Of a stretch of DNA of 34,321 bases, positions 1,899 through 28,410 are shown in pieces. Under the pieces are notes generated by a model. It had not been told where the DNA came from. It saw only the letters and a list, made by a program, of their open reading frames with translations, and did no database searches. The DNA lies in IMG/VR virus record IMGVR_UViG_3300017917_000193, positions 1 to 34,321 of that record; one strand, written 5' to 3'. The position numbers and the translations under genes are program-made. Each line of letters starts with the position of its first letter. Positions within the stretch are counted from its first letter, which is position 1. The DNA is from a virus.

Positions 1899-1927
1899 TT
1901 GACAATAAATGGACTCTAGTATAGAAT
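1899..1927 (+). promoter_or_regulatory. Early-type promoter (TTGACAATAAAT family)
   Basis: TTGACA 1899-1904, 17-bp spacer, TAGAAT 1922-1927. Six bases later comes the ATG of the next gene (1934), so transcription should begin at the start codon itself. Confidence 0.85.
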
Positions 1928-1933
1928 AGGCAC

Positions 1934-2188
1934 ATGGAAATCAAAACTGCATTAGAAGCCAGAGAAGTTTGCGATCAGTTGCGTAGCGAACTGTCCAAGC
2001 TAAGATACAATCCAGACCTTATCAAGATGTTAAAGAACATCGAGAAGATGGTCACTGAGGTTTCCAAACTTGAAGTCACTTGTCGCAGAATGGTAAGCCA
2101 AGTCATACTTGAAAAGCCACTTAGCGAATTGAACCAATCAATCGTTCATCTGAAAAAACTAATACTAGTTGCTAAACTAATGGAATGA
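1934..2188 (+). CDS. Small helical protein of unknown function
   Basis: An 84-residue, charged, leucine-rich product that looks almost wholly alpha-helical with coiled-coil-like heptads and a single cysteine pair region near residues 14 and 50. I recognise no family. It is the first gene of the early island. Its ATG falls at the predicted transcription start of the promoter at 1899-1927, and no Shine-Dalgarno sequence precedes it, so translation may be leaderless. The next gene starts one base after its stop. Confidence 0.6.
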   Translation: MEIKTALEAREVCDQLRSELSKLRYNPDLIKMLKNIEKMVTEVSKLEVTCRRMVSQVILEKPLSELNQSIVHLKKLILVAKLME

Positions 2189-2189
2189 T

Positions 2190-2402
2190 ATGTACAACTT
2201 AATTTTCATTGCTACTCAAACTGTGCTTGGTTCGTTTGTTTCATTGCCTTCATGTGAAAACGCAATGAAACAACATGCAATTTTTTCCATCACGGGCCCT
2301 TCTGTCAAAGCAACTCCTGAGATTGAACGTGCCGCGGAATCTATCGTGAAGTACTCCAACAAGTATCAATGCCTCAAGGTTGACAATAAACCCAAAATGT
2401 AA
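2190..2402 (+). CDS. Small protein with hydrophobic N-terminus, unknown
   Basis: A 70-residue product. Residues 2-20 are mildly hydrophobic (YNLIFIATQTVLGSFVSL) and could be a weak signal or membrane segment, followed by a polar domain with two cysteines (near residues 22 and 61) that could pair if exported. No family is recognised. It begins one base after the preceding stop, so it is probably translationally coupled. Its last codons contain the -35 box of the next promoter, and its TAA stop directly abuts the -10 element. Confidence 0.5.
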   Translation: MYNLIFIATQTVLGSFVSLPSCENAMKQHAIFSITGPSVKATPEIERAAESIVKYSNKYQCLKVDNKPKM

Positions 2403-2408
2403 TATACT
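2380..2408 (+). promoter_or_regulatory. Early-type promoter inside the end of the preceding gene
   Basis: TTGACA 2380-2385, 17-bp spacer beginning ATAAAC, TATACT 2403-2408. The next ATG (2415) begins exactly six bases downstream, again at the predicted +1. Confidence 0.85.
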
Positions 2409-2414
2409 TACAGC

Positions 2415-2822
2415 ATGGAATACAAAATCGAAGCTGGGAAGCGTAACAAAAAGTTCATCGAGGCAATCCTTCCCTCGATGCTACAGCAACTCAACCTGGA
2501 ACGTAGTAAAAGAGTATTACTTATTCGTGTAGCCGACGAATGTGGTGAGAACTACGGTGCAACAATGGACCTGGGCAAGAACCTCGGTATCGTTGTTGTA
2601 GTCAAGCCTCGTAGGAGTCTCATAGAGTTGGGGTCTACCCTTGCTCATGAAATGGTACATGTCAAGCAATTGGCTAAAGGTCAATTGAAAACTCGCAAGA
2701 CAGGTTCGTATGTTTGGGCTGGCAAACGCTACAGCAAAAAAACTGAATACTTGAGTATGCCCTGGGAAATTGAAGCATTTAGTAAGCAGGAACTAATCCT
2801 TCGTCGGGCCCTCGAGGTTTGA
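2415..2822 (+). CDS. SprT-like zinc metalloprotease
   Basis: A 135-residue protein with a gluzincin-type active site: HEMVH at residues 78-82 in a LAHEMVHVKQ helix. The third zinc ligand is probably a glutamate in PWEIEAF (residues 116-122). Small HExxH proteins of this type are common in tailed phages and are often annotated as SprT-like or putative metallopeptidase; the target is unknown. It is shorter than SprT/Spartan, with only the catalytic core and a basic linker (residues 88-110). No Shine-Dalgarno sequence precedes ATG 2415, which lies at the predicted +1 of its promoter. The stop TGA is embedded in the -35 box of the following promoter. Confidence 0.7.
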   Translation: MEYKIEAGKRNKKFIEAILPSMLQQLNLERSKRVLLIRVADECGENYGATMDLGKNLGIVVVVKPRRSLIELGSTLAHEMVHVKQLAKGQLKTRKTGSYVWAGKRYSKKTEYLSMPWEIEAFSKQELILRRALEV

Positions 2823-2856
2823 CAATAAATGGGTTTGGGCATATAATACATGTATT
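2819..2856 (+). promoter_or_regulatory. Early-type promoter with AATACNNGTATT dyad
   Basis: TTGACA 2819-2824 (containing the upstream TGA stop), 17-bp spacer with TTTGGG, TATAAT 2842-2847. A perfect 12-bp palindrome, AATACATGTATT (2845-2856), overlaps the -10 and the predicted start site, which suggests an operator. Confidence 0.85.
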
Positions 2857-2877
2857 GATTGATTAAAGGAGCACTGA

Positions 2878-3165
2878 ATGTCTAACAAGGAATGGATGGT
2901 TGCAGTTTACAAGCGTGATCGCCGTTGTAAAGCAGGTGAGCGTTTCGTTGCTAAGTACCCGTTCTCGGGTATGGATCGTGCAGGTGTCGAACGTGAACTG
3001 CGTGAACTGACCATGCAACTGTATCCGAAGAAAGATGGCTGGCGCTTTGACGTTCAGGAGCGTTACATGACTGTCAAGAACTACATGACCGGTGAGGACG
3101 TTCAAATCGAGGCTGACACTCCTTGGTGTTGCAACCCTGCAAGCGAATCCTACTGGAGCATGTAA
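2878..3165 (+). CDS. Unknown early protein
   Basis: A 95-residue product with a good ribosome binding site (AAAGGAG, 8 bases before ATG 2878). It is basic in the N-terminal half and acidic near the C-terminus, with a CC pair close to the end (TPWCCNP). I recognise no family. It is driven by the dyad-bearing promoter immediately upstream and shares its last base with the next gene's start codon, so the pair is probably translationally coupled. Codon use leans to CTG and CGT, unlike the late genes. Confidence 0.6.
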   Translation: MSNKEWMVAVYKRDRRCKAGERFVAKYPFSGMDRAGVERELRELTMQLYPKKDGWRFDVQERYMTVKNYMTGEDVQIEADTPWCCNPASESYWSM

Positions 3166-3341
3166 TGCGTAAGTACAAAGTAACACTGTTGTTTTCAAAT
3201 CTGGACAATTTCTTGGGCACTGACTCACAGGCTAAACTTTTCTATGACATTGAAACAGACAGCTATTCTCATGCCGTACTGTTGGCCCAACGTCTGTCTG
3301 ACCGTCTGGACGCCGATCTGTACGACATTGACGAGGCTTGA
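3165..3341 (+). CDS. Unknown small early protein
   Basis: A 58-residue product starting MRKYKVTLLFSN. The start is chosen at the TAATG overlap with the preceding gene rather than the longer in-frame extension. The content is acidic and looks like a small alpha/beta fold. The TGA stop lies within the -35 box of the following promoter. No family recognised. Confidence 0.55.
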   Translation: MRKYKVTLLFSNLDNFLGTDSQAKLFYDIETDSYSHAVLLAQRLSDRLDADLYDIDEA

Positions 3342-3375
3342 CAATAAATCCAAACTCTGATACAATACTTGTATT
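3338..3375 (+). promoter_or_regulatory. Early-type promoter with dyad
   Basis: TTGACA 3338-3343, 17-bp spacer, TACAAT 3361-3366, palindrome AATACTTGTATT at 3364-3375. The upstream TGA stop is inside the -35 box. Confidence 0.85.
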
Positions 3376-3399
3376 GACACTGAAACACAGGAGAACGAA

Positions 3400-3705
3400 A
3401 TGGCACTGACACCCCTGACTGAACGACAAAAGGCACTGATTGTTTCCAATGTCGTCAAGGCATGTAAGAACATCAATTCCCTAAACAACACCGGCTACAA
3501 GTTTATCAACTTGTGCAGTGGCTTCATCGCCCACTACGACCTGTATGGCTTCCAAAGCTTTTACAGCGACAACAGCCTCAAGCACGACATTGTGTCCTTT
3601 GCAGGTCAAAATCAATGGTCTAACTTTCGCCCAGGCGAAAACGGTTACGACTATGCAATGGCACAAAAGGATGTGTACAATCGCATTCTCGCCCAAATTC
3701 TGTGA
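3400..3705 (+). CDS. Unknown early protein
   Basis: A 101-residue soluble protein preceded by CAGGAG at good spacing. It is rich in aromatic residues and asparagine (LYGFQSFYSDNS, NQWSNFRPGENGYDYAM). No motif is recognised. It forms a single-gene unit between two early-type promoters and directly precedes the MoxR-like ATPase gene. Confidence 0.6.
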   Translation: MALTPLTERQKALIVSNVVKACKNINSLNNTGYKFINLCSGFIAHYDLYGFQSFYSDNSLKHDIVSFAGQNQWSNFRPGENGYDYAMAQKDVYNRILAQIL

Positions 3706-3711
3706 AAGTGT

Positions 3712-3740
3712 TTGACAATAAATCAAACATCGCATACAAT
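3712..3740 (+). promoter_or_regulatory. Early-type promoter, no dyad
   Basis: TTGACA 3712-3717, 17-bp spacer, TACAAT 3735-3740. The sequence after the -10 (ACAGATTC) lacks the GTATT half of the dyad seen elsewhere. It drives the ATPase gene. Confidence 0.85.
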
Positions 3741-3781
3741 ACAGATTCTTAATTTTCTTTCTTTCAACAACTGGAGTAAAC

Positions 3782-4882
3782 ATGTCTAAAGTTTCTGACA
3801 ATCTGACCATCACTAGCGTTCAAGCCCGTAAAGCCGTGCTGAAGGCATTTCAAGCAAAGCGTCCCGTGTTTCTGTGGGGCCCTCCTGGCATCGGTAAGTC
3901 TGAGGTCGTTCAAGAGATTTCCGATGAACTCGGCGGTTTCGTGATTGACTTGCGTATGGCTCAGATGGAACCCACTGACATTCGTGGTATCCCATACTTC
4001 AACAAGGATCTCGGTAAGATGGATTGGGCCGCGCCCGTCGATCTGCCTGACGAGGAATTTGCTAGTCAATATCCCGTTGTTGTTCTGTTCCTCGATGAAA
4101 TGAACAGTGCCCCGCCCGCTGTGCAGGCTGCAGGTTATCAACTGATTCTGAACCGTCGTGTCGGTAAGTACAAGTTGCCTGATAACGTTGTTATCGTTGC
4201 GGCAGGTAACCGTGACAGTGACAAGGGTGTGACTTATCGCATGCCGATGCCCCTCGCTAACCGATTCTTGCACTTGGAGATGCGCCCTGACTTTACTGCA
4301 TGGCAGAACTGGGCTGTTGACAAAGGCATTCACAAGGACGTGGTTGGTTACTTGTCTTTCGCAAAGCAAGACCTGTACGAATTCGATAGCAAGTCCGCTA
4401 GCCGTGCATTCGCTACCCCTCGCTCTTGGGTGTTTGTGTCTGATCTGCTGAAGGATGAGGACGTTGATACCGATACTCTGTTCAACTTGGTTGCAGGTGC
4501 TGTTGGTGAAGGTCTTGCTGTTAAGTTCATGGCACACCGTAAGGTTGCAGGTCGTATGCCCGACCCGGCAGATATTCTGTCTGGTAAGGTCAAGGATCTG
4601 TCTGTCAAGGAAATCTCTGCGATGTACTCGCTGACTGTTTCTATGTGCTACGAACTGCGTGACTCTCTTGAAAACAAGAAGGTCAACAACAAAGAGTTCC
4701 ATGACATGGCTAAGAACTTCTTCGAATACATCATGAAGAATTTCGAGACTGAACTGGTCGTGATGGGTGCTAAAATTGCGCTCAAGACTTACAAACTGCC
4801 GATCGAGCCTAGCTTGCTTGGTGCATCGTTTGATGAATTCCACAAGAAGTACGGTAAGTACATCGTGGAAGCTGGCAACTGA
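3782..4882 (+). CDS. MoxR-like AAA+ ATPase
   Basis: A 366-residue AAA+ protein. Walker A is GPPGIGKS (residues 33-40), Walker B VLFLDEMN (101-108), sensor 1 asparagine N143 in AAGNRDSD, and an arginine-finger candidate R161 in LANRFLH. The architecture matches MoxR/CbbQ-type ATPases, which remodel target complexes together with a VWA-domain partner. Such a partner is encoded 550 bases downstream (5430). The ribosome binding site is CTGGAG. A GNRA-loop hairpin and a terminator follow, so the VWA gene is expressed separately. A chaperone role on host or phage complexes is inferred; the target is unknown. Confidence 0.85.
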   Translation: MSKVSDNLTITSVQARKAVLKAFQAKRPVFLWGPPGIGKSEVVQEISDELGGFVIDLRMAQMEPTDIRGIPYFNKDLGKMDWAAPVDLPDEEFASQYPVVVLFLDEMNSAPPAVQAAGYQLILNRRVGKYKLPDNVVIVAAGNRDSDKGVTYRMPMPLANRFLHLEMRPDFTAWQNWAVDKGIHKDVVGYLSFAKQDLYEFDSKSASRAFATPRSWVFVSDLLKDEDVDTDTLFNLVAGAVGEGLAVKFMAHRKVAGRMPDPADILSGKVKDLSVKEISAMYSLTVSMCYELRDSLENKKVNNKEFHDMAKNFFEYIMKNFETELVVMGAKIALKTYKLPIEPSLLGASFDEFHKKYGKYIVEAGN

Positions 4883-4907
4883 TCCTAAGAGACAGTTGTT
4901 TACTCCC

Positions 4908-4958
4908 GGGGCAGAAATGCCCTGTTTAATGGGTGGGAGTGATATCCCACCCCTTTTT
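4908..4958 (+). terminator. GNRA hairpin plus intrinsic terminator
   Basis: A small hairpin GGGCA-GAAA-TGCCC (4909-4922) precedes a strong stem GGGTGGGA / TCCCACCC (4931-4938 with 4945-4952) followed by TTTTT. It ends the ATPase transcript. No promoter is obvious before the next gene, so some read-through is likely. Confidence 0.8.
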
Positions 4959-4971
4959 ATAAGGTAATGTT

Positions 4972-5124
4972 ATGAGTGGCAAAAAGTATTTTTACGCATT
5001 GGGGCAACGTGCCCGTGCACAAGGTCTGACAAAGGACCAAGGCGTTGCAAAGTTTCGATTGGATTGTGCATTACCGTTTGCCCTCATTGCATTTGATGCA
5101 GGATATCGAGGTCTGTCGCTATGA
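4972..5124 (+). CDS. Small unknown protein
   Basis: A 50-residue frame, MSGKKYFYALGQRARAQGL onward, with a weak ribosome binding site (AAGG) ten bases before the ATG. It ends in an ATGA overlap with the next gene, which supports it as real and coupled. It is slightly basic and has no recognised motif. Confidence 0.55.
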   Translation: MSGKKYFYALGQRARAQGLTKDQGVAKFRLDCALPFALIAFDAGYRGLSL

Positions 5125-5372
5125 GTGATGACAACAAAACCCCCAAGATAATTTTCGCTCCCGGTTGCTTTGACAGTTTTGAAGGCACACAAGAGGAACT
5201 GGATGAACTTGTAGCAGAGATTCAGCGACTGGCTGACTCTGGCGAACTATTCGACCGTTCGCAACCCGTGGACCTCGATTCCCTCACTGATGAACAATTA
5301 GAAATCTTGGAACAAACCATGGAGTTCATCGAATCTGATGACGAGGTTCCTCCCAAGCGCCTGCTCAACTGA
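5121..5372 (+). CDS. Small acidic protein, unknown
   Basis: An 83-residue, strongly acidic protein (many Glu and Asp, e.g. DEQLEILEQTMEFIESDDE) coupled by ATGA to the preceding gene. A helical C-terminal half is likely. Acidic small proteins of this kind sometimes mimic DNA or bind basic partners, but nothing here shows that. No family recognised. Confidence 0.55.
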   Translation: MSDDNKTPKIIFAPGCFDSFEGTQEELDELVAEIQRLADSGELFDRSQPVDLDSLTDEQLEILEQTMEFIESDDEVPPKRLLN

Positions 5373-5374
5373 GG

Positions 5375-5412
5375 TTGACAATAAATCCAGTATTTGCTAT
5401 AATACTAGTATT
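5375..5412 (+). promoter_or_regulatory. Early-type promoter with dyad
   Basis: TTGACA 5375-5380, 17-bp spacer, TATAAT 5398-5403, palindrome AATACTAGTATT at 5401-5412. It drives the metallopeptidase/VWA gene. Confidence 0.85.
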
Positions 5413-5429
5413 GCATAGAAAGGTATCGT

Positions 5430-6716
5430 ATGAGTCAAGTTATTGACAAGCGCAAAACTAAAAAACACAATGACAAGTTTGATAAACTTGTCGGTGAGAC
5501 TGACCCCAAAATCGACCATCAGGCACGTGAACGTCTGGTGACTGCACGTATCGGTTTGCTGTTGCGTCATTCATTCTTCGGCAATCTTGCAACCCGAATG
5601 CAATTGACCAACGCCGACGAATGGTGCTCTACTGCGGCAACCGACGGTCTCAAGTTCTATTACAACTCCCGATTCATTATGATGTTGCGCCCTAAAGAGG
5701 TTGAGTTCCTCGTGGCGCATGAGGTGCTTCACGTTGTTTACGATCACATGGGTCGCCGAGGTACCCGTGATCCGCAACTGTTTAACATTGCAAACGACTA
5801 CGCCGTTAACGCTGACTTGAAGCGACACAAGGTTGGCGAGTTCATCAAGACTGTGCCCTGTCTTTATGAGGCAAAGTATGATGGTAAATCGTCTGAGGAA
5901 ATCTATGATGACCTCATGAAGAATGTCCAGAAGATCAACATTGATGACCTTATCAATCAAATGATTGACGATCACCTTGATGGTGACGGTGACGGTGAAG
6001 ATAGCGATGGTGACGGTGATGGTGACAAAGAAGGCAAAGGCAAGCGTCCTCGCATGTCAGGTGAAGAACGTGAACGTGCCCGTCAAGAAATCAAGCAGGC
6101 TATTCTGAATGCCGCACAATCTGCCGAAGCAGGTTCACTGCCCAAAGGTGTTGAACGTCTGATTCGCAACGTTACTGATCCTGTCATGCCCTGGCGTGAA
6201 CTGATTCAGACTAACTTGACCAGTGCAATTCGTACTGACTTTTCTTGGATGCGTCCTTCTCGGCGTGGTTGGCACATGGATGCTATCATGCCCGGTATGA
6301 CTCCCGGTGAAGAAATCGATGTGGTTGTTGCTATCGACATGTCTGGTTCTATCTCTAACAAGCAAGCACAAGCATTCTTGGGTGAGATCGGTGGCATGAT
6401 GGAAGCATTCGATGGCTACAAGGTTCATGTGTTCTGCTTTGACACTGAAATCTATAACCCCGCTGACTTCACTAGCGAGAACCTCGATTCAATCGATGGC
6501 TACGAACCAGCAGGTGGCGGTGGCACTGACTTTGACGCTATCTTTACTTACTTGAAAGAAGTTGGTAATGTGCCCAAGCGTCTGATTGTTTTCACTGACG
6601 GTTATCCTTGTGGTTCTTGGGGAGATCCTGACTACTGCGATACGACTTGGATCATTCACGGTGACCCCGATCCGCATCCCCCATTCGGTACGTTCGCACT
6701 CTACGATGACAAATGA
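5430..6716 (+). CDS. Metallopeptidase-like plus von Willebrand A domain protein
   Basis: A 428-residue two-domain protein of the DUF2201/VWA-like metallopeptidase type. The N-terminal half has HEVLH at residues 97-101 followed by YDH, a zinc-site motif. A Gly/Asp-rich linker (about 184-200) leads to a charged helix. The C-terminal VWA domain carries an intact MIDAS: DMSGS at 303-307, a GGGTD loop and a FTDGYP strand. Proteins of this type pair with MoxR-like ATPases, and one lies just upstream (3782). The two probably act as a chaperone or remodelling module; the target is unknown. Its ribosome binding site is AAAGG. Confidence 0.8.
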   Translation: MSQVIDKRKTKKHNDKFDKLVGETDPKIDHQARERLVTARIGLLLRHSFFGNLATRMQLTNADEWCSTAATDGLKFYYNSRFIMMLRPKEVEFLVAHEVLHVVYDHMGRRGTRDPQLFNIANDYAVNADLKRHKVGEFIKTVPCLYEAKYDGKSSEEIYDDLMKNVQKINIDDLINQMIDDHLDGDGDGEDSDGDGDGDKEGKGKRPRMSGEERERARQEIKQAILNAAQSAEAGSLPKGVERLIRNVTDPVMPWRELIQTNLTSAIRTDFSWMRPSRRGWHMDAIMPGMTPGEEIDVVVAIDMSGSISNKQAQAFLGEIGGMMEAFDGYKVHVFCFDTEIYNPADFTSENLDSIDGYEPAGGGGTDFDAIFTYLKEVGNVPKRLIVFTDGYPCGSWGDPDYCDTTWIIHGDPDPHPPFGTFALYDDK

Positions 6717-9702: not shown

Positions 9703-9941
9703 AACGAAGTGTAATAGTTCACTCATTTAGAATGAGCGATGTAGAAGATCCTGATCTATGGGCAGGACAAACATTGTATGAATGGGAACACAGTGACGCT
9801 GGTCAGTGGATTATAAAAAACAGTGTAGAACAACCTTCATGGCATAGACATATGGATCCCAGTACGTATGGCTATGTCTATACAATCAGAGCCTATCTCA
9901 CTGACAAAGCATATACGTATTGGAAATTAAAGTATGAGTAA
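9699..9941 (+). CDS. Unknown small phage protein
   Basis: An 80-residue protein (MKRSVIVHSFRMSDVEDPDL start) rich in Tyr, Trp and His in its C-terminal half. It overlaps thymidylate synthase by four bases and the epimerase by eight. Similar short proteins occur in T4-like phages, but I cannot name a function. Confidence 0.6.
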   Translation: MKRSVIVHSFRMSDVEDPDLWAGQTLYEWEHSDAGQWIIKNSVEQPSWHRHMDPSTYGYVYTIRAYLTDKAYTYWKLKYE

Positions 9942-10908
9942 AATTTTAGTAACAGGTGGACTAGGTCTTATAGGACACCATGTAGTAGCAAAGTTAGAAA
10001 AGCTAGGTCATGAGGTAGTGATCTTTGATACACAGACAAACTACGGTATCATCACGCAGTCAGAGATAGAATATCTCATGTCTGAAAGAAAGAAGAAGAT
10101 CAAAACACACCATATTTACAAGTATGACATTTGTGATTCTAACGGAAATATCAATTGGATGTTTAAGGCTCACAAGTTTGATATTGTGATTCACATGGCA
10201 AGCTTCCCTCGACAGAAGGTTGTCAATGCTAATCCTCAATGGGGTAGTAGAGTAATGAGCGAAGGTCTGTTGAACCTGTGCGAATTAAGCAAAACCAACA
10301 ACGTAAGAAAGTTCGTATACATCAGTTCAAGTATGGTCTATGGTGACTTCACTGACGATGTAACAGAAGATTATAACTGCAAGCCACAAGGACAATATGG
10401 AATACTCAAACTCACCGGGGAACACTTGGTTAAAGATTACACTCGCAGAGGCTGTTTTAATCATGTTATTATTCGGCCAAGTGCTGTTTACGGCCCGCTT
10501 GATGTGGAAGATAGAGTTATTGCAAAATTCATGCTCACAGCGATGCGTGATGGAACTCTTAAGGTTAATGGAGCAGGAGAAACCCTCGACTTCACCTACG
10601 TTGAAGATGCCGCGGAAGGAATCGTCAGAGCTAGTTTAAGTCCTGATACCGACAATAAAACATACAACATCACTAAGAGCCACAGTAGGAGTCTGCTTGA
10701 TGCGGCACAATTAGCTGTGAAGATTGTCGGTAAAGGCACCATTGAAGTTCGTGACAAAGATGCTGACTTCCCGAGCCGAGGCGCATTGAACATTGATGCG
10801 GCGCGCAGAGACTTTGGATTCGATCCTAAAGTCGATGTTGAAGAAGGCTTTCAGAAGTATTATGATTGGTTGAGTACTAGCGCATATTGGCAAGAAAAGA
10901 ATGTTTAA
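9934..10908 (+). CDS. NAD-dependent sugar-nucleotide epimerase/dehydratase (extended SDR)
   Basis: A 324-residue extended short-chain dehydrogenase/reductase. The N-terminal Rossmann motif GGLGLIG spans residues 8-14, the ISSSMVYGD strand holds the catalytic serine/threonine region, and the YxxxK pair is Y155 and K159 in QYGILK. These enzymes epimerise or dehydrate nucleotide-linked sugars; the exact substrate cannot be read. With the DegT-type aminotransferase at 11248 it could build an amino sugar, perhaps to decorate virion or host lipopolysaccharide. It overlaps the next gene by eight bases. Confidence 0.85.
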   Translation: MSKILVTGGLGLIGHHVVAKLEKLGHEVVIFDTQTNYGIITQSEIEYLMSERKKKIKTHHIYKYDICDSNGNINWMFKAHKFDIVIHMASFPRQKVVNANPQWGSRVMSEGLLNLCELSKTNNVRKFVYISSSMVYGDFTDDVTEDYNCKPQGQYGILKLTGEHLVKDYTRRGCFNHVIIRPSAVYGPLDVEDRVIAKFMLTAMRDGTLKVNGAGETLDFTYVEDAAEGIVRASLSPDTDNKTYNITKSHSRSLLDAAQLAVKIVGKGTIEVRDKDADFPSRGALNIDAARRDFGFDPKVDVEEGFQKYYDWLSTSAYWQEKNV

Positions 10909-11257
10909 CAAACTCACTATCCCTATCCTTCGCAAGTTGATGCCAGTTAGTATCGCAAAGGATATAGTTGGTGTACAGCCAATGACTGGTACAAATCCTA
11001 TCTTTCAGATGAAAGACGGTAAAGTAGGATTCAAGAACTATACACTAGCACGTAATCAAAACGAATGTGTCTTGTACGATAAACCTGACTGTACATATTA
11101 TGCAGTTGACGTTAGACCTATAGTAGAAGAATGGTTGATGGAGCAACCTCTTCACATGTGGAAGAATGCAGAAGAAATTGAAGATTGTCAGATTAGTTGC
11201 ACACGCTATATCGTCAGCGAAGAACTATTAACTTGGATGACATTACGATGGGGATGA
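10901..11257 (+). CDS. Small protein with gp23-like motif
   Basis: A 118-residue protein whose first 40 residues read LRKLMPVSIAKDIVGVQPMT, closely resembling the segment of T4-type major capsid proteins that carries the GVQPM motif. The rest (TYYAVDVRPIVEEWLMEQ onward) is not capsid-like as far as I can see, and at 118 residues this is far too short to be a capsid protein (about 500). It could be a decoy, an assembly factor or a derived accessory protein. It sits between two sugar genes and overlaps both. Confidence 0.5.
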   Translation: MFNKLTIPILRKLMPVSIAKDIVGVQPMTGTNPIFQMKDGKVGFKNYTLARNQNECVLYDKPDCTYYAVDVRPIVEEWLMEQPLHMWKNAEEIEDCQISCTRYIVSEELLTWMTLRWG

Positions 11258-12321
11258 ATATACCTCACTTTGGTCTAGCAAGGCAATATGCTAACTTGAA
11301 AGACGAGTTATTAGATGCAACTCATCGTGCCTTGAAAGATGGTTACCTCGTTGGCGGTCACTATACTCGTTCATTTGAAGAATGGTTGAAACATAGAACG
11401 CAAACAAAGTATGCTATCACTGTTCACAGTGGTACACAAGCACTTGAGATTATTGCACGATGGAAAAAGATTAAGCATCACGAAAGTATTACGTCTAACC
11501 CATTGATAAGGCTACCTAATCTAACTTATCCAGCAACACTAAACGCATTCTTGACCGCTGGTTGGGATGTTGAAATAGGTGACACAGATAGGCACGGCAT
11601 CCTACGTAGAGATACCCCTCCCGGTGGAAGAGGTAGTTACGATTGCGTTGTGGGGTTCAGCGGTAGACGACCATGGCCAGAAGCTACCTATCGTGACAGC
11701 TTTAGTGTTATTGTCGATGGAGCACAACATTGGTTAGCATGTGATGGCAATGTTGGTAGTGGTATGGCAATCAGTTTTGATCCTACAAAGAATCTACCTG
11801 CATCAGGCAATGGAGGTGCTATCGTAACAAACAACGAACATTTGTATCTCTATGCAACAAGGTACAAAGACAACAACAAGCCTTACTTTGATGCTGTAGG
11901 TACTAATAGCAAAATGTCCGAGCAAGACTGCGCCCAATTACTAGTACGCACAAAACACATTGATCGTTGGCAAGACCGCAGAAAAAAGATAGCAGACTAC
12001 TGGTGTGAACAATTTAAAGATTTGCCATTTGAATGTCTCAATGACACTAGGACACCTCATGCAAATCAAAAGTTTGTATTGTACATGTCTGATCGAAACT
12101 CATTCCATACTCACATGCTACTCAATGGCATAGATACAAAGATTCATTATGAATATGTATTGGGCGATTTACCTACATCAATAGGATTAACGAAACCAGA
12201 TATGCTTTCTACAAGTGTAATGCTATCTAGGGGCGTGATTAGCTTACCAATCTATCCTGAATTGACTGATTCCGAAGTCAATTATATAGCCGAGAAAGTG
12301 GATGAATTCTTCGGGGAATGA
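11248..12321 (+). CDS. DegT/DnrJ/EryC1-type sugar aminotransferase
   Basis: A 357-residue PLP-dependent enzyme. The substrate side begins with PHFGLARQYANL and GYLVGGHYTRSFEEWL. PLP binding uses the HSGTQALE loop, D157 in VDGAQ, and the Schiff-base lysine K181 in SFDPTKNLPA followed by GNGGAIVT. These enzymes transaminate keto-sugars on nucleotide carriers, and the partner may be the epimerase at 9934. Two starts are possible: ATG 11248, used here, and ATG 11254, which would overlap the previous stop as ATGA. Neither has a strong ribosome binding site. Confidence 0.85.
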   Translation: MGMNIPHFGLARQYANLKDELLDATHRALKDGYLVGGHYTRSFEEWLKHRTQTKYAITVHSGTQALEIIARWKKIKHHESITSNPLIRLPNLTYPATLNAFLTAGWDVEIGDTDRHGILRRDTPPGGRGSYDCVVGFSGRRPWPEATYRDSFSVIVDGAQHWLACDGNVGSGMAISFDPTKNLPASGNGGAIVTNNEHLYLYATRYKDNNKPYFDAVGTNSKMSEQDCAQLLVRTKHIDRWQDRRKKIADYWCEQFKDLPFECLNDTRTPHANQKFVLYMSDRNSFHTHMLLNGIDTKIHYEYVLGDLPTSIGLTKPDMLSTSVMLSRGVISLPIYPELTDSEVNYIAEKVDEFFGE

Positions 12322-12329
12322 GTATCTAG

Positions 12330-12337
12330 TATAAATA
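12330..12337 (+). promoter_or_regulatory. T4-type late promoter TATAAATA
   Basis: A perfect TATAAATA lies eight bases before the ATG of the spanin-like gene (12346). In T4-like phages this octamer is read by a gp55/gp33/gp45-modified polymerase. Neither gp55 nor gp33 is recognisable in this window. Confidence 0.75.
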
Positions 12338-12345
12338 CGGGTACT

Positions 12346-12789
12346 ATGTGGATACTATCAATACTACCTGAATCAGCCATACATATCATATTTGTCGTTG
12401 GCACACTGGGCGTAATCGCAGGCTTTGTCCTAGGATTTATACCCTTTATTAAATCCTATAAATTAGCAATACAAGTATGTAGTATACTATTGCTAGTTTT
12501 CGGCGTTTACCTTGAGGGCGGACTAGCTGACTACAAAGAGTGGGAACTTAAAGTCAAAGAAATGGAAGCCAAAGTAGCGAAGGCAGAAGCCGAAGCCGCT
12601 AATAAAAATATTGAGATCCAAGAAAAAGTTGTTGAAAAGACTAAGATTGTGCGTGAGAAAGGTCGTGAGATTATCAAGTACATTGACCGCGAAGTTGTCA
12701 AAGACAATGAAGTAATAAAGTTCGTTGAACAATGCCCTAATGTCCCTGCTTCTGTAATTGAACAAATGAATAAGGCGGCCACAAAATGA
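12346..12789 (+). CDS. Inner-membrane spanin-like protein (Rz-like)
   Basis: A 147-residue protein with two hydrophobic spans (about residues 8-33 and 38-58), then a long charged coiled coil (about 65-130) reaching into the periplasm. The tail is CPNVPASVIEQMNKAATK; Cys-Pro near the end is typical of i-spanins in T4-like phages. The next two genes encode lipoproteins, as expected of a spanin cassette that fuses inner and outer membranes at lysis. The two-span N-terminus is less usual. The start lies close to the late promoter and has no Shine-Dalgarno sequence. Confidence 0.6.
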   Translation: MWILSILPESAIHIIFVVGTLGVIAGFVLGFIPFIKSYKLAIQVCSILLLVFGVYLEGGLADYKEWELKVKEMEAKVAKAEAEAANKNIEIQEKVVEKTKIVREKGREIIKYIDREVVKDNEVIKFVEQCPNVPASVIEQMNKAATK

Positions 12790-13049
12790 GATACTTACTA
12801 ATCGCCTTATTACTTGCAGGATGCTCTACAACTGTGCCCGTAGCCCCTAAGTTCCCTAATGCTACCCCAGAACTCATGAAAAAATGTGAGGATTTGAAGA
12901 AGATTGAGGGTGATAAAGTATCAATTACTGACATGCTAAAGGTAGTTGTAACCAACTATACCATGTACTATGAATGTTCGACCAAAGTAGATGGTTGGCA
13001 AGAGTGGTATAATGAACAGAAGAAAATCTACGATGAAGCTGGTAAGTAA
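12786..13049 (+). CDS. Lipoprotein, candidate outer-membrane spanin
   Basis: An 87-residue protein with a lipoprotein signal peptide, MRYLLIALLLAGC; lipidation would occur at C13. The mature part (about 75 residues) is polar with two more cysteines, and it is not proline-rich as in lambda Rz1. It is coupled by ATGA to the spanin-like gene and overlapped by the next lipoprotein gene. An o-spanin role is inferred from this order; the alternative is an unrelated periplasmic lipoprotein. Confidence 0.6.
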   Translation: MRYLLIALLLAGCSTTVPVAPKFPNATPELMKKCEDLKKIEGDKVSITDMLKVVVTNYTMYYECSTKVDGWQEWYNEQKKIYDEAGK

Positions 13050-13302
13050 TAGCATATTATCGGTGGCTTTGCTAGCAGGATGTGCATCCACTAACGATTA
13101 CCAGATATACGTAGACACTCAGAAAACCCTCAACAAAGACTACACCATGGCTGAATTAGCTAGGATTTCAGCCCTCACTGAGATTGTCAAGGAAACTCAG
13201 GACGTAAGTGTCAGAATACAAGCAATTAAAGCCCTACAAGAGATACAACGTAGCAAGAAACCGCTGACTATTGAGCGCCCCAAGTCTTGGTTTGAAAGAT
13301 AA
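13033..13302 (+). CDS. Second lipoprotein of the cassette
   Basis: An 89-residue protein starting MKLVSNSILSVALLAGC; the lipobox LAGC places lipidation at C17. The mature domain is helical (TMAELARISALTEIVKETQ). It begins inside the end of the preceding lipoprotein gene. Two consecutive lipoproteins after one inner-membrane spanin candidate is unusual: one could be the o-spanin and the other an accessory protein. The start was chosen for the signal peptide rather than the longer upstream frame. Confidence 0.6.
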   Translation: MKLVSNSILSVALLAGCASTNDYQIYVDTQKTLNKDYTMAELARISALTEIVKETQDVSVRIQAIKALQEIQRSKKPLTIERPKSWFER

Positions 13303-23899: not shown

Positions 23900-24724
23900 A
23901 TGTCAGCACAAATTTACACCCTTTCTAATCTGCCTTCCAGTATCAGTATCTCTGGTGCTACCGGTGCAGTTGGTTCAACTACAATCGGCGGTCAATTGCA
24001 AACACTCTCATTGAGTAATCTTAATTCTAGTGCCGGTTTTAATCTTTTCTCAAACACACAGAATGTAAAGAAGTACGAAGTGATCGAAACTACCGAAGAC
24101 CTATTAGCCCTTAGTTGCACATGGTATCGTATTAGGAATTCCAAAGATACGCTGAGGCCCATGATTACATCACTTGTATCAGAGGATCTATTCCGTCAAG
24201 TAACCCCTGAGGATCGAGTACATGCCGATGAAGTACGTGAGTACTACAGCAAGAAGTTTATGGTCATGGCATTGAAAGAAGAACGCCTCACCCAGTTTAG
24301 ACAAGACTTGAAAGAGTATATCAACGGTGACCCTAAGAAGTTTACCGAAAAGACTATTCCAATGGTCTATCGTCTCCCTGAGTTCCATGCACATGATATT
24401 GAGTTTGATGTTATCAAGCGAGAGTTTGATAAAGAGATTCCGCAATTCAATCAACAAAGCCGTCGTACAAGTGATAAGCCTGTCAGACTGACACCAGTTA
24501 AGTCATTCAAAAAGAACAGCAAGCTCCGTGGTAAGTTTGTTGAATACTGGTTGAAGGACCCCAAGAATCGTGCATATCGATTTGGGTTGAATGCTTCTAA
24601 CCCACTATTAGGCTTGTGGGACAATCAATTCAACTCAGGCGACATGCACTTGACTATCAACTATCAGGTGGCGCGCCGAGACGACCTGCAATTCTTCAAC
24701 ATTGGGTCAGTACTACCTGATTGA
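23900..24724 (+). CDS. Unknown phage protein downstream of uvsY
   Basis: A 274-residue protein. The first 45 residues are Ser/Thr/Gly-rich (SISGATGAVGSTTIGGQLQT) and probably flexible. The rest is charged and compact (YEVIETTEDLLALSCTWYRI, later FVEYWLKDPKNRAYRFGLNA). I recognise no family. It follows uvsY by two bases and ends with a TGA that lies inside the -35 box of the next promoter. Confidence 0.55.
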   Translation: MSAQIYTLSNLPSSISISGATGAVGSTTIGGQLQTLSLSNLNSSAGFNLFSNTQNVKKYEVIETTEDLLALSCTWYRIRNSKDTLRPMITSLVSEDLFRQVTPEDRVHADEVREYYSKKFMVMALKEERLTQFRQDLKEYINGDPKKFTEKTIPMVYRLPEFHAHDIEFDVIKREFDKEIPQFNQQSRRTSDKPVRLTPVKSFKKNSKLRGKFVEYWLKDPKNRAYRFGLNASNPLLGLWDNQFNSGDMHLTINYQVARRDDLQFFNIGSVLPD

Positions 24725-24749
24725 CAATAAATCATTTTGGTAGTACAAT
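24721..24749 (+). promoter_or_regulatory. Early-type promoter, start codon at +1
   Basis: TTGACA 24721-24726 (containing the upstream TGA), 17-bp spacer with TTTTGG, TACAAT 24744-24749. ATG 24756 begins six bases after the -10. There is no dyad. Confidence 0.85.
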
Positions 24750-24755
24750 GCAAAT

Positions 24756-24950
24756 ATGTACTACAAAATGTCAACATACGAACGCATTGCTGAAAAACTA
24801 CTGAAGGGCCAGCCCAAAGCAAAGCCCTTTGGTAAGCTTATCGACGGCAAGTTTCTCACAGGAACCAAGAGCCTACACCGAACCAAACAATCTGTTCGGT
24901 GGCGCCTGTTTTGGCGCCTAAAATTTCAGCGAGTCAAACAAAAAGGTTGA
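24756..24950 (+). CDS. Small basic protein or small RNA
   Basis: A 64-residue, very basic frame (MYYKMSTYERIAEKLLKGQP start; second ATG at 24768). No ribosome binding site exists, and the ATG is at the predicted +1. The RNA would hold three hairpins: AAGGGC with GCCCTT (24804-24829), CACCGAAC with GTTCGGTG (24876-24901), and two GGCGCC copies (24901-24918). Either a leaderless mRNA or a structured small RNA fits. The stop lies inside the next -35 box. Confidence 0.4.
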   Translation: MYYKMSTYERIAEKLLKGQPKAKPFGKLIDGKFLTGTKSLHRTKQSVRWRLFWRLKFQRVKQKG

Positions 24951-24984
24951 CAATAAATCATTTTGGGCATACAATATGTGTATT
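24947..24984 (+). promoter_or_regulatory. Early-type promoter with near-perfect dyad
   Basis: TTGACA 24947-24952, 17-bp spacer with TTTTGGG, TACAAT 24970-24975, AATATGTGTATT at 24973-24984 (one mismatch to the palindrome). Confidence 0.85.
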
Positions 24985-25005
24985 GATTGATTAAAGGAGT
25001 CTGAC

Positions 25006-25245
25006 ATGACTATCAAGCGTTTCAAGCAAACCCAAAAGTTTCGTGTTATTGTTGGTAATGCATGTTTCTATGCTACTGCCAAGCAAATTCGTAACGGTAT
25101 CGGTGACTTTACGAAGTGTAATGCGGCTACTCAAAAAGCATTAGATTCTCTGGAGTACACTCGCTCCTGCGGTGGCGTTCTGTCCAGCACTGTTGGTCAG
25201 TCAGGTACTTGGGAGGGTTTGCAAGTTCAAATTAACGTGGCTTGA
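25006..25245 (+). CDS. Unknown early protein
   Basis: A 79-residue protein with a good ribosome binding site (AAAGGAG). It is basic at the start (MTIKRFKQTQKFRVIVGN) and has three cysteines. No family recognised. A single-gene unit whose TGA lies in the next promoter's -35 box. Confidence 0.6.
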   Translation: MTIKRFKQTQKFRVIVGNACFYATAKQIRNGIGDFTKCNAATQKALDSLEYTRSCGGVLSSTVGQSGTWEGLQVQINVA

Positions 25246-25270
25246 CAATAAATCGTTTTGGGTCTATAAT
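25242..25270 (+). promoter_or_regulatory. Early-type promoter, no dyad
   Basis: TTGACA 25242-25247, 17-bp spacer with TTTTGGG, TATAAT 25265-25270. It contains the upstream stop codon. Confidence 0.85.
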
Positions 25271-25299
25271 AGAGTCTTATTCAGTTGAAAGGGGTCTTT

Positions 25300-25506
25300 A
25301 TGTCTTATGTCGTTTTCAAGCACAATCAAGAATACGGTCCTCGCAAAGGTCTGGAGGGTCCGTTTCACTACCCCAACGGTCAGGTTCTGTACTACGATGT
25401 GAAAGAAGGAATGTACTACGATCCTACTACCGATTTCTACGTTGAACTGGATCAAGTCAACGAACTCCAAAATCAAATTTTCGATCTGCTCCGCAAGAAA
25501 GGTTAA
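25300..25506 (+). CDS. Unknown early protein
   Basis: A 68-residue protein starting MSYVVFKHNQEYGPRKGLEG, preceded by GAAAGGGG. The ATG at 25300 is preferred to the in-frame TTG at 25285 because of spacing. It is rich in Tyr and Asp with a C-terminal helix (NELQNQIFDLLRKKG). No motif recognised. Confidence 0.6.
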   Translation: MSYVVFKHNQEYGPRKGLEGPFHYPNGQVLYYDVKEGMYYDPTTDFYVELDQVNELQNQIFDLLRKKG

Positions 25507-25507
25507 A

Positions 25508-25678
25508 ATGTCTAAAATGTCCGAACTACACATGGAGATCCTGGAAATGCTTGAGAAGGGTGATCGCCCTATCAAGATTGCTACCCTGCTGGACGTCCCG
25601 GTTGAGATTGTATATGATGTCCTTGAACAAGAGGACCAAGTTGAGAACTATAGCCCTTTTGAAACTGTCAACTCCTGA
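25508..25678 (+). CDS. Small helix-turn-helix-like protein
   Basis: A 56-residue product. Residues about 18-40 (DRPIKIATLLDVPVEIVYDV) fit a helix-turn-helix in which IATLLDVP would be the second helix and turn, followed by an acidic tail. It could bind DNA, perhaps the operators of this island, but that is a guess. It starts one base after the preceding stop and is probably coupled to it. Confidence 0.5.
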   Translation: MSKMSELHMEILEMLEKGDRPIKIATLLDVPVEIVYDVLEQEDQVENYSPFETVNS

Positions 25679-25680
25679 GG

Positions 25681-25718
25681 TTGACAATAAATCGTTTTGG
25701 GCATATAATACATGTATT
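25681..25718 (+). promoter_or_regulatory. Early-type promoter with dyad
   Basis: TTGACA 25681-25686, 17-bp spacer with TTTTGGG, TATAAT 25704-25709, AATACATGTATT at 25707-25718. Confidence 0.85.
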
Positions 25719-25741
25719 GAATGACAAAACGGAGTCGCAAA

Positions 25742-25930
25742 ATGCGTAATCAAAAAGTACTCAAATTGGAACAGGCTATCAACACTCTGGAATACGCAAA
25801 AGTCCAGATCAAGGAAGCCCTCGGCGACACCGATTCCTACCAAATGTCTGCTAACGAAATTGATGCCCTGATCGAGGACCTGAATGTGGACATCGAATAC
25901 CTGGCTCAATCTCGCTATCAGCGCGGTTGA
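25742..25930 (+). CDS. Unknown early helical protein
   Basis: A 62-residue, helical, acidic protein starting MRNQKVLKLEQAINTLEYAK. ATG 25742 follows CGGAG at good spacing; an upstream in-frame ATG at 25721 is less likely. The TGA lies in the next -35 box. Confidence 0.55.
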   Translation: MRNQKVLKLEQAINTLEYAKVQIKEALGDTDSYQMSANEIDALIEDLNVDIEYLAQSRYQRG

Positions 25931-25964
25931 CAATAAATCGGTTTGGGTATATAATACTTGTATT
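25927..25964 (+). promoter_or_regulatory. Early-type promoter with dyad
   Basis: TTGACA 25927-25932, 17-bp spacer with TTTGGG, TATAAT 25950-25955, AATACTTGTATT at 25953-25964. It drives the AAA+ gene. Confidence 0.85.
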
Positions 25965-25991: not shown

Positions 25992-27023
25992 ATGTCTACG
26001 ATTCGCATTCTTTCTGGTTCTTATCGCAATCAACCCGTCAAAGGTGAGGTGTTCACTTTGGTTCGTGGTTTTCAATCCGGTAAGAAAGGCAACTACGTCA
26101 CTGTGAAGAATGACGGTCAATTCAATATTGACATTGAGGTTGTCAAGGTCAAGGTCGATTCTATGTCTGACATTCAGTTCCTAAATGGTACTGAACCCGT
26201 TGTCGAAGTGCCCACTGCTGAGGCAGAAGTCGTGCAGGCTGAAACTGATGAACAAGCAATGGATCGCATTGCTAGCCGATTCGCTGTCCTTGATGAAATG
26301 GCAGGTGCTTGCATCAAAGGTGACATTCGTGCTATGATTGTGACTGGTCCTGCTGGTATCGGTAAGTCGCACGGTGTGACTACTCAAATGGAAAAGGCTA
26401 GCATGTTTGACAAGCTGGCTGGCAAGCGTCCTCGCTTTGAGATTGTCAAAGGTGCTATCTCTGGTATCGGGCTGTTTGCTACCCTGTACAAGTACTCGGA
26501 CAAGAAAAACGTTCTGGTGTTCGATGACTGCGATGTGTGGGAAGATCAGGATGCTCTGAACGTCCTCAAGGGTGCTCTGGATTCCGGCAAGACCCGTCGT
26601 ATTTCTTGGAACAAGGATTCTCGTCTGTTGCGTGAAGAAGGTGTGCCGAACACTTTTGACTTCAACGGTTCTGTGATTTTCATCACCAACAAAACTTTCG
26701 ATAACAAGAAGGCTAGCAAGATTCAACCTCACTTGGATGCTCTCCAGTCTCGTTGTCACTTTCTTGACCTGACTGTTGACAGTGAGCGTGACAAGATGCT
26801 CCGCATTCGTCAGGTGCATCGTGACAGCCAAGACACTGGTGGTCTGTTCGCCGACTACGATTTCTCCGAGCAACAGGTCGAGGAACTGATGAACTTCATT
26901 TGGGACAATCACAACAAACTGCGTGAAGTGTCTCTGCGTATGTGCCTCAAGATTGCTGACCTCGTCAAGATTTCTAGCAACTGGCGTGAACTGGCTAAGG
27001 CAACTTGCATGAAGGGTGCTTAA
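25992..27023 (+). CDS. AAA+ family ATPase (second in the window)
   Basis: A 343-residue protein. The N-terminal 90 residues look like a small beta-barrel (SGSYRNQPVKGEVFTLVRGF) followed by an acidic linker. The ATPase core has Walker A GPAGIGKS (119-126), Walker B VLVFDDCD (about 174-181) and a sensor-1-like FITNK near 230. It is not a close copy of the MoxR-like protein at 3782. Its role may be replication, remodelling or takeover; the target is unknown. The ribosome binding site is CGGAG. Confidence 0.75.
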   Translation: MSTIRILSGSYRNQPVKGEVFTLVRGFQSGKKGNYVTVKNDGQFNIDIEVVKVKVDSMSDIQFLNGTEPVVEVPTAEAEVVQAETDEQAMDRIASRFAVLDEMAGACIKGDIRAMIVTGPAGIGKSHGVTTQMEKASMFDKLAGKRPRFEIVKGAISGIGLFATLYKYSDKKNVLVFDDCDVWEDQDALNVLKGALDSGKTRRISWNKDSRLLREEGVPNTFDFNGSVIFITNKTFDNKKASKIQPHLDALQSRCHFLDLTVDSERDKMLRIRQVHRDSQDTGGLFADYDFSEQQVEELMNFIWDNHNKLREVSLRMCLKIADLVKISSNWRELAKATCMKGA

Positions 27024-27024
27024 T

Positions 27025-27264
27025 ATGAAAGCGCAACGTGGATACACACTGATTGAGGTGATGGTTGTTGTAGTGTTTATTCTGACAATCGGCTTGATGG
27101 TCATTGGTGCTGTCACTGGTTCTAGTCAAGGCAACACTATTAGCTGGGGCTACAATGGGCTAACCGAAATGCGATGCATTGATGGTTACAAGTTTATCGT
27201 AGGTGAACAAGGTCACGTTCGTCAAGTAATGGATGAGTTTGGCAAAGGTGTGAAGTGTCAATGA
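27025..27264 (+). CDS. Type IV prepilin-like protein
   Basis: A 79-residue protein. After a short basic leader MKAQRG comes YTLIEVMVVVVFILTIGLMV, the class III signal of type IV pilins and pseudopilins. Cleavage would fall after G6, and the invariant glutamate is position +5 of the mature protein. Two cysteines (C51, C78) frame the C-terminal region like the D-region loop of pilins. The head domain is very small. If processed by host PilD it could enter or jam host pili or a type II secretion pseudopilus. It directly follows the AAA+ gene (one-base gap) and overlaps the next gene by four bases. A simple membrane-anchored protein is the alternative. Confidence 0.6.
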   Translation: MKAQRGYTLIEVMVVVVFILTIGLMVIGAVTGSSQGNTISWGYNGLTEMRCIDGYKFIVGEQGHVRQVMDEFGKGVKCQ

Positions 27265-27611
27265 ATTTCTCAACTGCATTTCACTTCACAATGTGGGTAG
27301 TGACAAAATTGCTGAAAACGATTTTTCAACTCCCGATGAAGTTTCATAAAAACTACATGGCAGTCTATCAAGATAGTCGTGGCGCAGGAACATTTGCTTG
27401 GTTCATTGTATCGGCTGTCATTATTGCTATTGCTGGTGCATCTGCATTGGGTATCGGTGACACTGTTAAAGAAAGCGTTGACAACATGGTGTTCACTGTA
27501 TGCGTACTAACTGGAATCTCGTTGTCGTATTACATCACGTGTGTACTTATTGACCAGTACGAACAGTTTCAATCTGAACGTGAAAGAACTTGGAAAACAT
27601 TAAAGGATTGA
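27261..27611 (+). CDS. Two-span membrane protein
   Basis: A 116-residue protein with two hydrophobic segments (about 43-63, AWFIVSAVIIAIAGASALG, and about 75-95) and a charged C-terminal helix (QFQSERERTWKTLKD). The N-terminal 35 residues are amphipathic. It is ATGA-coupled to the prepilin-like gene, so the two membrane proteins may act together. Function unknown. Confidence 0.6.
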   Translation: MNFSTAFHFTMWVVTKLLKTIFQLPMKFHKNYMAVYQDSRGAGTFAWFIVSAVIIAIAGASALGIGDTVKESVDNMVFTVCVLTGISLSYYITCVLIDQYEQFQSERERTWKTLKD

Positions 27612-27612
27612 T

Positions 27613-28410
27613 ATGAGTATCATTCAAGCATACAAATCTGATGCCGATGGCAAGATTTTCGAAGATAAAAAGAAGTACCAGGCACATTTGCGTAAGTTGG
27701 CTACTGCCCGCCGTGCTGAAAAGAAAGTTGAGCAGATGGAAGCCGAGCGTGAACTGTTCCTAGAAAAGATGGGACAAGTCAAGTCTATTGACGAACTGAA
27801 CCAGTTTATCAAAGACAATTGGAAGTGGTTCTGGGCCAATGGAGCACAGCATGACTTTTACAAATGGAGTAGCAACAAAGGCAAAGCCGCAGACTTCCAC
27901 GAGTACCATGAGGTCACTATTAGTGATGTGTTCTTTAAAGAAGACCTGTCTAACAGTCACTCTAGTCCTCGCAAAGGTGTTCAAAACTTTGATACCCGTG
28001 CTGACTACAACAAAGGTAAGCCTACTGGTTACCCCGGCTGGCAAGGTCGAATCAACATCAAAGTCAAGCCTCCAATGTCAAAGCACAAGAAAGACCCATA
28101 CATGCATGATGGTTGGGGTAGTTCTTACTTTAATGACACTACTATCAACACTGGTTCAGGTGGTGGTGGCGGTGGTAAAGACTTCAAGAGCTACAGCTAC
28201 GATGTTAAACTGTTTGCCGCAGACTTCCCTGCAATGTACGAAGCATTACGTAAGGATCAATGGATTCAAAACGAGAACAATGAACGAATGTATGTTTGGC
28301 GTCAACTCGGTGGTAAGGGGTTGACTCAAAGTGTCACTGAGGCAGATATCCCAAGTGATTGGGCACCATCTGACCCACTCAAAGGGGATTATAGTCGAGC
28401 AATTTGGTAA
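27613..28410 (+). CDS. Unknown phage protein
   Basis: A 265-residue protein. The first 60 residues are a charged helix (KKKYQAHLRKLATARRAEKK). The centre has many aromatics and a Gly-rich loop (TGSGGGGGGKDF, about 181-192) separating two domains. The N-terminal YKSDADGKIFEDKKKYQAHL has the spacing of a phage C2H2-like repeat but lacks the cysteines. No function can be named. A terminator follows. Confidence 0.55.
   Translation: MSIIQAYKSDADGKIFEDKKKYQAHLRKLATARRAEKKVEQMEAERELFLEKMGQVKSIDELNQFIKDNWKWFWANGAQHDFYKWSSNKGKAADFHEYHEVTISDVFFKEDLSNSHSSPRKGVQNFDTRADYNKGKPTGYPGWQGRINIKVKPPMSKHKKDPYMHDGWGSSYFNDTTINTGSGGGGGGKDFKSYSYDVKLFAADFPAMYEALRKDQWIQNENNERMYVWRQLGGKGLTQSVTEADIPSDWAPSDPLKGDYSRAIW

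Follow-up and report, generated by a model that had tools for sequence, protein, structure and literature searches.

The analysed stretch of DNA (the window) is a virus record of 34,321 bases that contains genes for a T4-type large terminase, a UvsX-like recombinase and a UvsW-type helicase, which makes the label 'T4-like' a fair one. Among isolated phages, the PA5oct-type Pseudomonas jumbo phages have the nearest terminases, with 50% identity. On the plus strand, an ORF of 79 amino acids at 27025-27264, translated as MKAQRGYTLIEVMVVVVFILTIGLMVIGAVTGSSQGNTISWGYNGLTEMRCIDGYKFIVGEQGHVRQVMDEFGKGVKCQ, lies second in an operon. The features of the operon and the parts of the encoded protein are as follows.

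25927..25955, plus strand: promoter of the operon, sigma-70 type, TTGACA-17-TATAAT, 12/12 match
25992..27023, plus strand: AAA ATPase of PHROG 1250, the upstream operon partner, with its stop 1 base before the prepilin ATG
27025..27264, plus strand: prepilin-like gene, 79 amino acids (from the ORF, PF07963, TIGR02532 and relatives)
27025..27042, plus strand: positively charged leader MKAQRG, with a predicted prepilin-peptidase cut after G6 (from PF07963/TIGR02532; G-1 in 44/47)
27043..27117, plus strand: stem, a hydrophobic N-terminal helix of residues 7-31, with E11 as mature +5 (model helix 9-31; E+5 in 43/47)
27136..27261, plus strand: miniature all-beta head, residues 38-79, ~42 residues (from a model of 4 strands and from selection)
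27175..27177, plus strand: Cys51, probable disulphide partner, invariant in 47/47
27256..27258, plus strand: Cys78, probable disulphide partner, invariant in 47/47
27255..27611, plus strand: overlapping downstream gene for a membrane protein with hydrophobic segments, starting at GTG 27255 or ATG 27261
27613..28410, plus strand: last operon gene, 265 amino acids
28427..28444, plus strand: terminator-like hairpin with a T run at the operon end

Translation could also start from a GTG at 27016, three codons upstream, and the ATG at 27025 fits the relatives. A sequence-only reading had assigned the protein a class III signal with the key Glu at +5, and signal models bear this out with scores above their curated cut-offs, 26.6 bits with Pfam N_methyl PF07963 (E 4e-6, cut-off 21.2) and 20.7 bits with NCBIfam TIGR02532 (cut-off 16.3). 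The basic leader MKAQRG ends in G and is followed by the aromatic Y+1, TLI, E+5 and a hydrophobic helix, as the class requires; the 19-residue Kyte-Doolittle mean of the hydrophobic stretch after YTLIE reaches 3.0. That reading was also right about the two cysteines of the head, C51 and C78, and about a head far below normal pilin size. All matches to the NCBIfam pilin equivalogs (PilA, PilV, GspG-J and ComG) are far under cut-off and limited to the signal region. A full-size head of the FimU/GspH kind is absent, as the GspH model scores 19 bits against a cut-off of 80, from the signal only. PADLOC gives no match.

Structure prediction, a check proposed with the sequence-only reading, yields an N-terminal helix (residues 9-31) plus a small four-strand head for the whole protein in AlphaFold2, with a mean pLDDT of 77.8 and a pTM of 0.40. 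Modeled alone, the head again has 4 strands, with a pLDDT of 89.8 and a pTM of 0.63, so that the small beta head is predicted confidently for its size. A C51-C78 disulphide is probable, because both cysteines are invariant and the location would be periplasmic. Solved pilins are matched at the N-terminus only, at most over about profile positions 2-42. Neither the whole model nor the head retrieves a convincing fold among solved structures (best Z 3.1 and 3.7, respectively), and Foldseek hits in the PDB have E-values of 1.9 or worse.

Relatives were collected by a whole-protein search, which finds 18 viral loci, and by a head profile, which finds 62 virus contigs ranging from a few kb to 374 kb. 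The alignment holds 47 distinct proteins, and conservation was counted over all of them. N_methyl is detected in 43 of the 47; 44 retain G-1 and 43 retain E+5, and R50, C51, F57, Q67, G73, G75 and C78 are invariant. The window protein has the head pattern R-C-x-x-G-Y-x-F ... G ... Q-x-x-D ... G-x-G-x-x-C. Codon comparison used the 41 members whose signal is close to standard, and gives pN/pS values of 0.22 in the signal, 0.67 in the rest of the stem and 0.25 in the head; the signal value is somewhat biased because these members were chosen for the motif, a bias from which the 47-member counts are free. Signal and head are thus under purifying selection at the codon level, while the rest of the stem drifts. 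There are exceptions: E+5 is replaced by Q in locus L030 and by N in L058, and the G/YTLIE signal is wholly missing in the close relatives L038, L073 and L077.

The gene occurs as one copy per record in all 37 phage records tested, a second match in one of them covering 10 positions only (E 0.009) at a contig edge. When N_methyl was searched through the whole genomes of six related phage records, the prepilin-like gene was the sole match in five, and the L018 record gave none. A family-profile scan of 84,980 bacterial and archaeal species genomes returned 37 pattern matches, with no relative among them. Among isolated phages, Synechococcus phage BUCT-ZZ01, whose host is Synechococcus elongatus PCC 7942, encodes a full-length homologue at 84785-85036 (37% identity over all 79 residues, E 2e-11) with both signal and head as in the window protein, annotated merely as a hypothetical protein. 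Xanthomonas phage X1 has a more diverged homologue, weak in tblastn (E 0.8) and found by the head profile at E 0.0013. By these comparisons the protein family is real, conserved and uncharacterised.

The promoter of the operon is one of eleven near-identical promoters TTGACAATAAA...TATAAT in the window, with 0-1 mismatch in 12, all on the plus strand and in two clusters at 1899-5403 and 24721-25955, where 0.32 would be expected by chance. Most relatives also have promoter-like sites matching at 11-12/12 positions ahead of the gene, in many cases at a distance of about 1.0-1.3 kb. From their sequence, the eleven are probably early promoters and the prepilin-like gene is apparently expressed early. 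Since TTGACA-17-TATAAT sites are a signature of early host-polymerase promoters, the prepilin operon points to early host takeover. A tail or virion role was set aside, given the early-type operon and given that T4-late-like TATAAATA sites occur in the window only at 12330 and 17064.

Two gene orders recur in the family. In one, as in the window, the PHROG 1250 AAA ATPase and the prepilin-like gene are followed by a 337-aa gene and the UvsW-type helicase. In the other, the prepilin-like gene comes after a Band_7/SPFH lipoprotein gene, which is directly upstream at L043:4890-5687 and at 23 further loci (neighbour cluster 1); in Xanthomonas phage X1, too, an SPFH gene is near the homologue. Related phages also carry a hairpin with the nearly fixed loop CAAYRWCAATAAGT, often right after the prepilin-like gene, with loop starts at L003:810, L007:5271, L010:551, L011:1867, L012:2168, L028:2170, L055:6194 and L074:5599. 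Its stem covaries (AGAGG/CCTCT, AACGG/CCGTT, GAGGG/CCCTC, TGGGG/CCCCA). It is absent from the window, has no Rfam match over gathering score in the loci scanned, and has the look of an RNA or DNA element not described before.

Other parts of the window gave further observations. A permuted tmRNA at 1-234 (Rfam RF04321, 65.9 bits), its 5′ end cut by the window edge, has the tag frame ANDSVFALAA followed by a stop. RF04321 was found in 8 of 37 related phage records, in seven of them with a score over the cut-off; contigs of 331 and 374 kb are among the eight. The tag has no exact match in bacterial genomes, so no host was assigned. The 183-aa product of 1302-1853 has a signal peptide, a sequence pattern resembling that of a beta-barrel and no Pfam match, and is possibly a phage-encoded outer-membrane protein. 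At 3782-6716, a MoxR-type AAA ATPase lies beside a DUF2201 metallopeptidase/VWA protein as a chaperone-like pair. Nucleotide-sugar epimerase and DegT-type aminotransferase genes at 9934-12321 perhaps serve glycan modification, and two overlapping small ORFs at 12786-13302, the first Rz-like and spanin-like (PHROG 456), are a probable spanin pair.

The head is also found on other anchors. It sits on a plain hydrophobic transmembrane anchor in ACP17 (an Acidovorax phage), in RG-2014 (a Delftia phage) and in L073 and L077, and on a lipoprotein-type signal in ORF355 of Xanthomonas phage XacN1. Against 10,182 ORFs, the head profile scores ACP17 at E 1.5e-5, XacN1 at 0.0034 and RG-2014 at 0.094, with the first unrelated ORF at ~2; these E-values are optimistic because the candidates were pre-chosen by similarity searches. 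In Foldseek, the head model superposes on the ACP17 and RG-2014 models over 33 columns with a TM-score of 0.72 and rmsd of 0.9 and 0.8 Å. The three distant proteins thus have the cysteine pattern in common with the window family, and ACP17 and RG-2014 a predicted fold likeness as well, but they differ by their transmembrane or lipoprotein anchor. Expansion searches in viral contigs found none of the XacN1 lipoprotein form and, for the RG-2014 form, only itself. Relatives with a hydrophobic segment but lacking G/YTLIE, which the sequence-only reading had named as evidence against itself, therefore do occur (L038, L073 and L077, and the distant ACP17, RG-2014 and XacN1), but they are a minority, and the head can accordingly exist without the prepilin stem.

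A looser likeness of the head in Foldseek is to DUF6440 proteins (prob 0.99, TM 0.83, rmsd 2.0 Å) and to phage lipoproteins, and no sequence match to Pfam DUF6440 is listed in the 47 members or the three distant heads. The XacN1 lipoprotein head (L090:1495-1713) ends in DKDGNGIPCE and scores 19.4 bits with the Excalibur calcium-binding model, under the cut-off of 22, hinting that the XacN1-type head may have derived from a calcium-binding ancestor. For the window head, a calcium-binding function was dropped, as the DxDxDG ligands are missing (MDEFGKG).

Small prepilin-like stems are not confined to this family. The sequence-only reading knew of no described T4-like example, which turns out to be incorrect. 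Aeromonas phage Aeh1 ORF040c and PX29 gp038, both of Straboviridae, carry annotations of similarity to the N-terminus of pilins, a gene of Synechococcus phage ACG-2014f is named pilin, and ORF231 of the KVP40-like ValKK3 is reported as PilE-like (PMC13142089). The same class III signal and small size are seen in T4-like phages in Aeh1 ORF040c (28 aa), PX29 gp038 (31 aa), the KVP40-like VH7D (67 aa) and nt-1 (61 aa) and the ACG-2014f 'pilin' (127 aa), and outside them in PAK_P3 (59 aa), PhiW-14 (44 aa) and Acibel004 (107 aa). Unlike the window family, however, all eight lack the C-x-x-G-Y-x-F ... Q-x-x-D ... G-x-G-x-x-C head. Altogether, 168 isolated-phage records have small prepilin-like stems, with hosts Synechococcus (49), Pseudomonas (47), Vibrio (32), Aeromonas (22), Acinetobacter (6), Xanthomonas (3) plus a few others. 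There are zero Escherichia or Klebsiella phage records among them, though 632 and 328 records for these hosts in the collection match the T4-like terminase; the host counts are a lead rather than a test, because the records are redundant and related.

Pilus interference by a phage protein has known precedent. Tip (D3112 gp05) and Aqs1 (DMS3) are small phage proteins that inhibit PilB, shutting down type IV pili and excluding other phages (PMC11436027). Neither works as a false pilin, their target being the PilB ATPase, whereas the window protein has a prepilin signal and a membrane helix. A closer case is P-FimU, a minor pilin of Pseudomonas prophage JBD68 that takes the place of host FimU and is believed to stop infection by similar phages, according to the review PMC12826054, which describes the study of Sztanko et al. 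2024 (doi 10.1101/2024.03.29.587342). Like the window protein, P-FimU is a phage-encoded protein of the pilin type, and for P-FimU a pilus-directed anti-phage role is reported there. F10 gp11, with a prepilin signal and E+5 as in the window protein, may be of the same kind as P-FimU; it has a large head at a length of 210 aa, and its neighbours are tail genes, in contrast to the 79 aa, 42-residue head and early-type operon of the window protein. A literature search with phrases for phage-encoded pilins gave no match, and no prior description of a prepilin family with a swappable head was found in the literature, so this family and its swappable head are new as far as found.

On the reading that we favour, to which we give about even credence, the window protein would act early in host takeover by slipping into the type IV filament pathway of the host as a false pilin. 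The protein would be produced early from the strong host-type promoter and be inserted in the inner membrane, where host prepilin peptidase would trim it after G6 and N-methylate it, leaving mature Y/F+1 and E+5 free to dock in pilin style. With a head of ~42 residues vs ~100, it would compete with real pilins for the peptidase and the platform, or alternatively join the growing filament and then weaken, stop or alter it. The infected cell would lose normal pili, so that later pilus-dependent phages would be excluded and DNA uptake or twitching stopped. We infer that the protein is cleaved and docks, that pili are affected and that the phage gains from it, and assume that the host of the window phage has type IV pili and PilD. 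Cleavage by PilD with a block of pilus or secretion function, as the sequence-only reading had proposed, is plausible.

The false-pilin reading draws on the N_methyl match, the upkeep of G-1 and E+5, the operon and its promoter, the single copy and the phage-only distribution, as well as on the hosts of other phages with small prepilin-like stems, which do not include Escherichia or Klebsiella, and on the P-FimU precedent. Counted against it are the loss of E+5 in L030 and L058 and of the whole signal in L038, L073 and L077. In filaments, E+5 pairs with the N-terminus of the neighbour subunit (PMC10191384), and since this pairing residue is conserved, docking is favoured over anchoring alone. 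It is known, moreover, that slower PilD processing leads to phage resistance (PMC13170266) and that pilus dynamics are set by the minor:major pilin ratio (PMC13249403).

On the other hand, the prepilin stem could be just one anchor of several, with a disulphide-type head that works in the periplasm, for example by excluding superinfecting phage DNA or by binding an envelope protein, and leaves the pilus untouched. We consider this a possibility of some substance, short of probable. The heads on lipoprotein and transmembrane anchors speak for it, together with the profile scores and superpositions given above, although there are only a few distant head matches, with low sequence similarity, and it leaves G-1 and E+5 unexplained amid a drifting rest of the helix. 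Since conservation of the head equals that of the signal and other anchors carry this head too, its own target may outweigh the pilus. Conservation of E+5 favours the false pilin and the anchor swaps favour an independent head; both could hold.

It is unlikely that the protein is instead a working substitute minor pilin, displayed outside in host pili whose assembly continues, and altering phage or surface binding as P-FimU does in the account of PMC12826054. That precedent and an intact E+5, unlike the caps lacking Glu5 (PMC10191384), agree with such a role. Large heads are seen in full-size phage pilins such as F10 gp11, however, while a 42-residue head offers little surface, and working pili would be of little use to a lytic phage. 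Still less probable is that the type II secretion pseudopilus is the target instead of the pilus, even though both systems depend on PilD (PMC13170266) and the signal gives similarly weak matches with T2SS pseudopilin and with pilin profiles. The Escherichia and Klebsiella phages of the collection are without small prepilin stems, although the Pul type II system of Klebsiella is well known. That an ordinary small membrane protein resembles a prepilin by chance is scarcely credible: the motif is short and small hydrophobic ORFs are common in phages, but curated cut-offs are passed and the motif is under purifying selection across dozens of diverged relatives.

More speculatively, lytic phages might repeatedly have made the pilin stem a delivery device, in which one effector head is put on a pilin, membrane or lipoprotein anchor according to the host, the stem form using the pilus machine as target or carrier. 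We put this forward as a tentative idea that is rather improbable as it stands; if true, it would be an envelope-targeted takeover of a kind without earlier description. The pilus-directed phage proteins described so far, as found, come mainly from temperate Pseudomonas phages. Here a minimal prepilin family with a separable head occurs in T4-like and jumbo-sized phage contigs, with isolated homologues in BUCT-ZZ01 and, as a weaker match, X1. With this family, a direct test becomes possible of whether host pili are shut down by lytic phages at an early stage of infection, and of whether a tiny pilin suffices for this.
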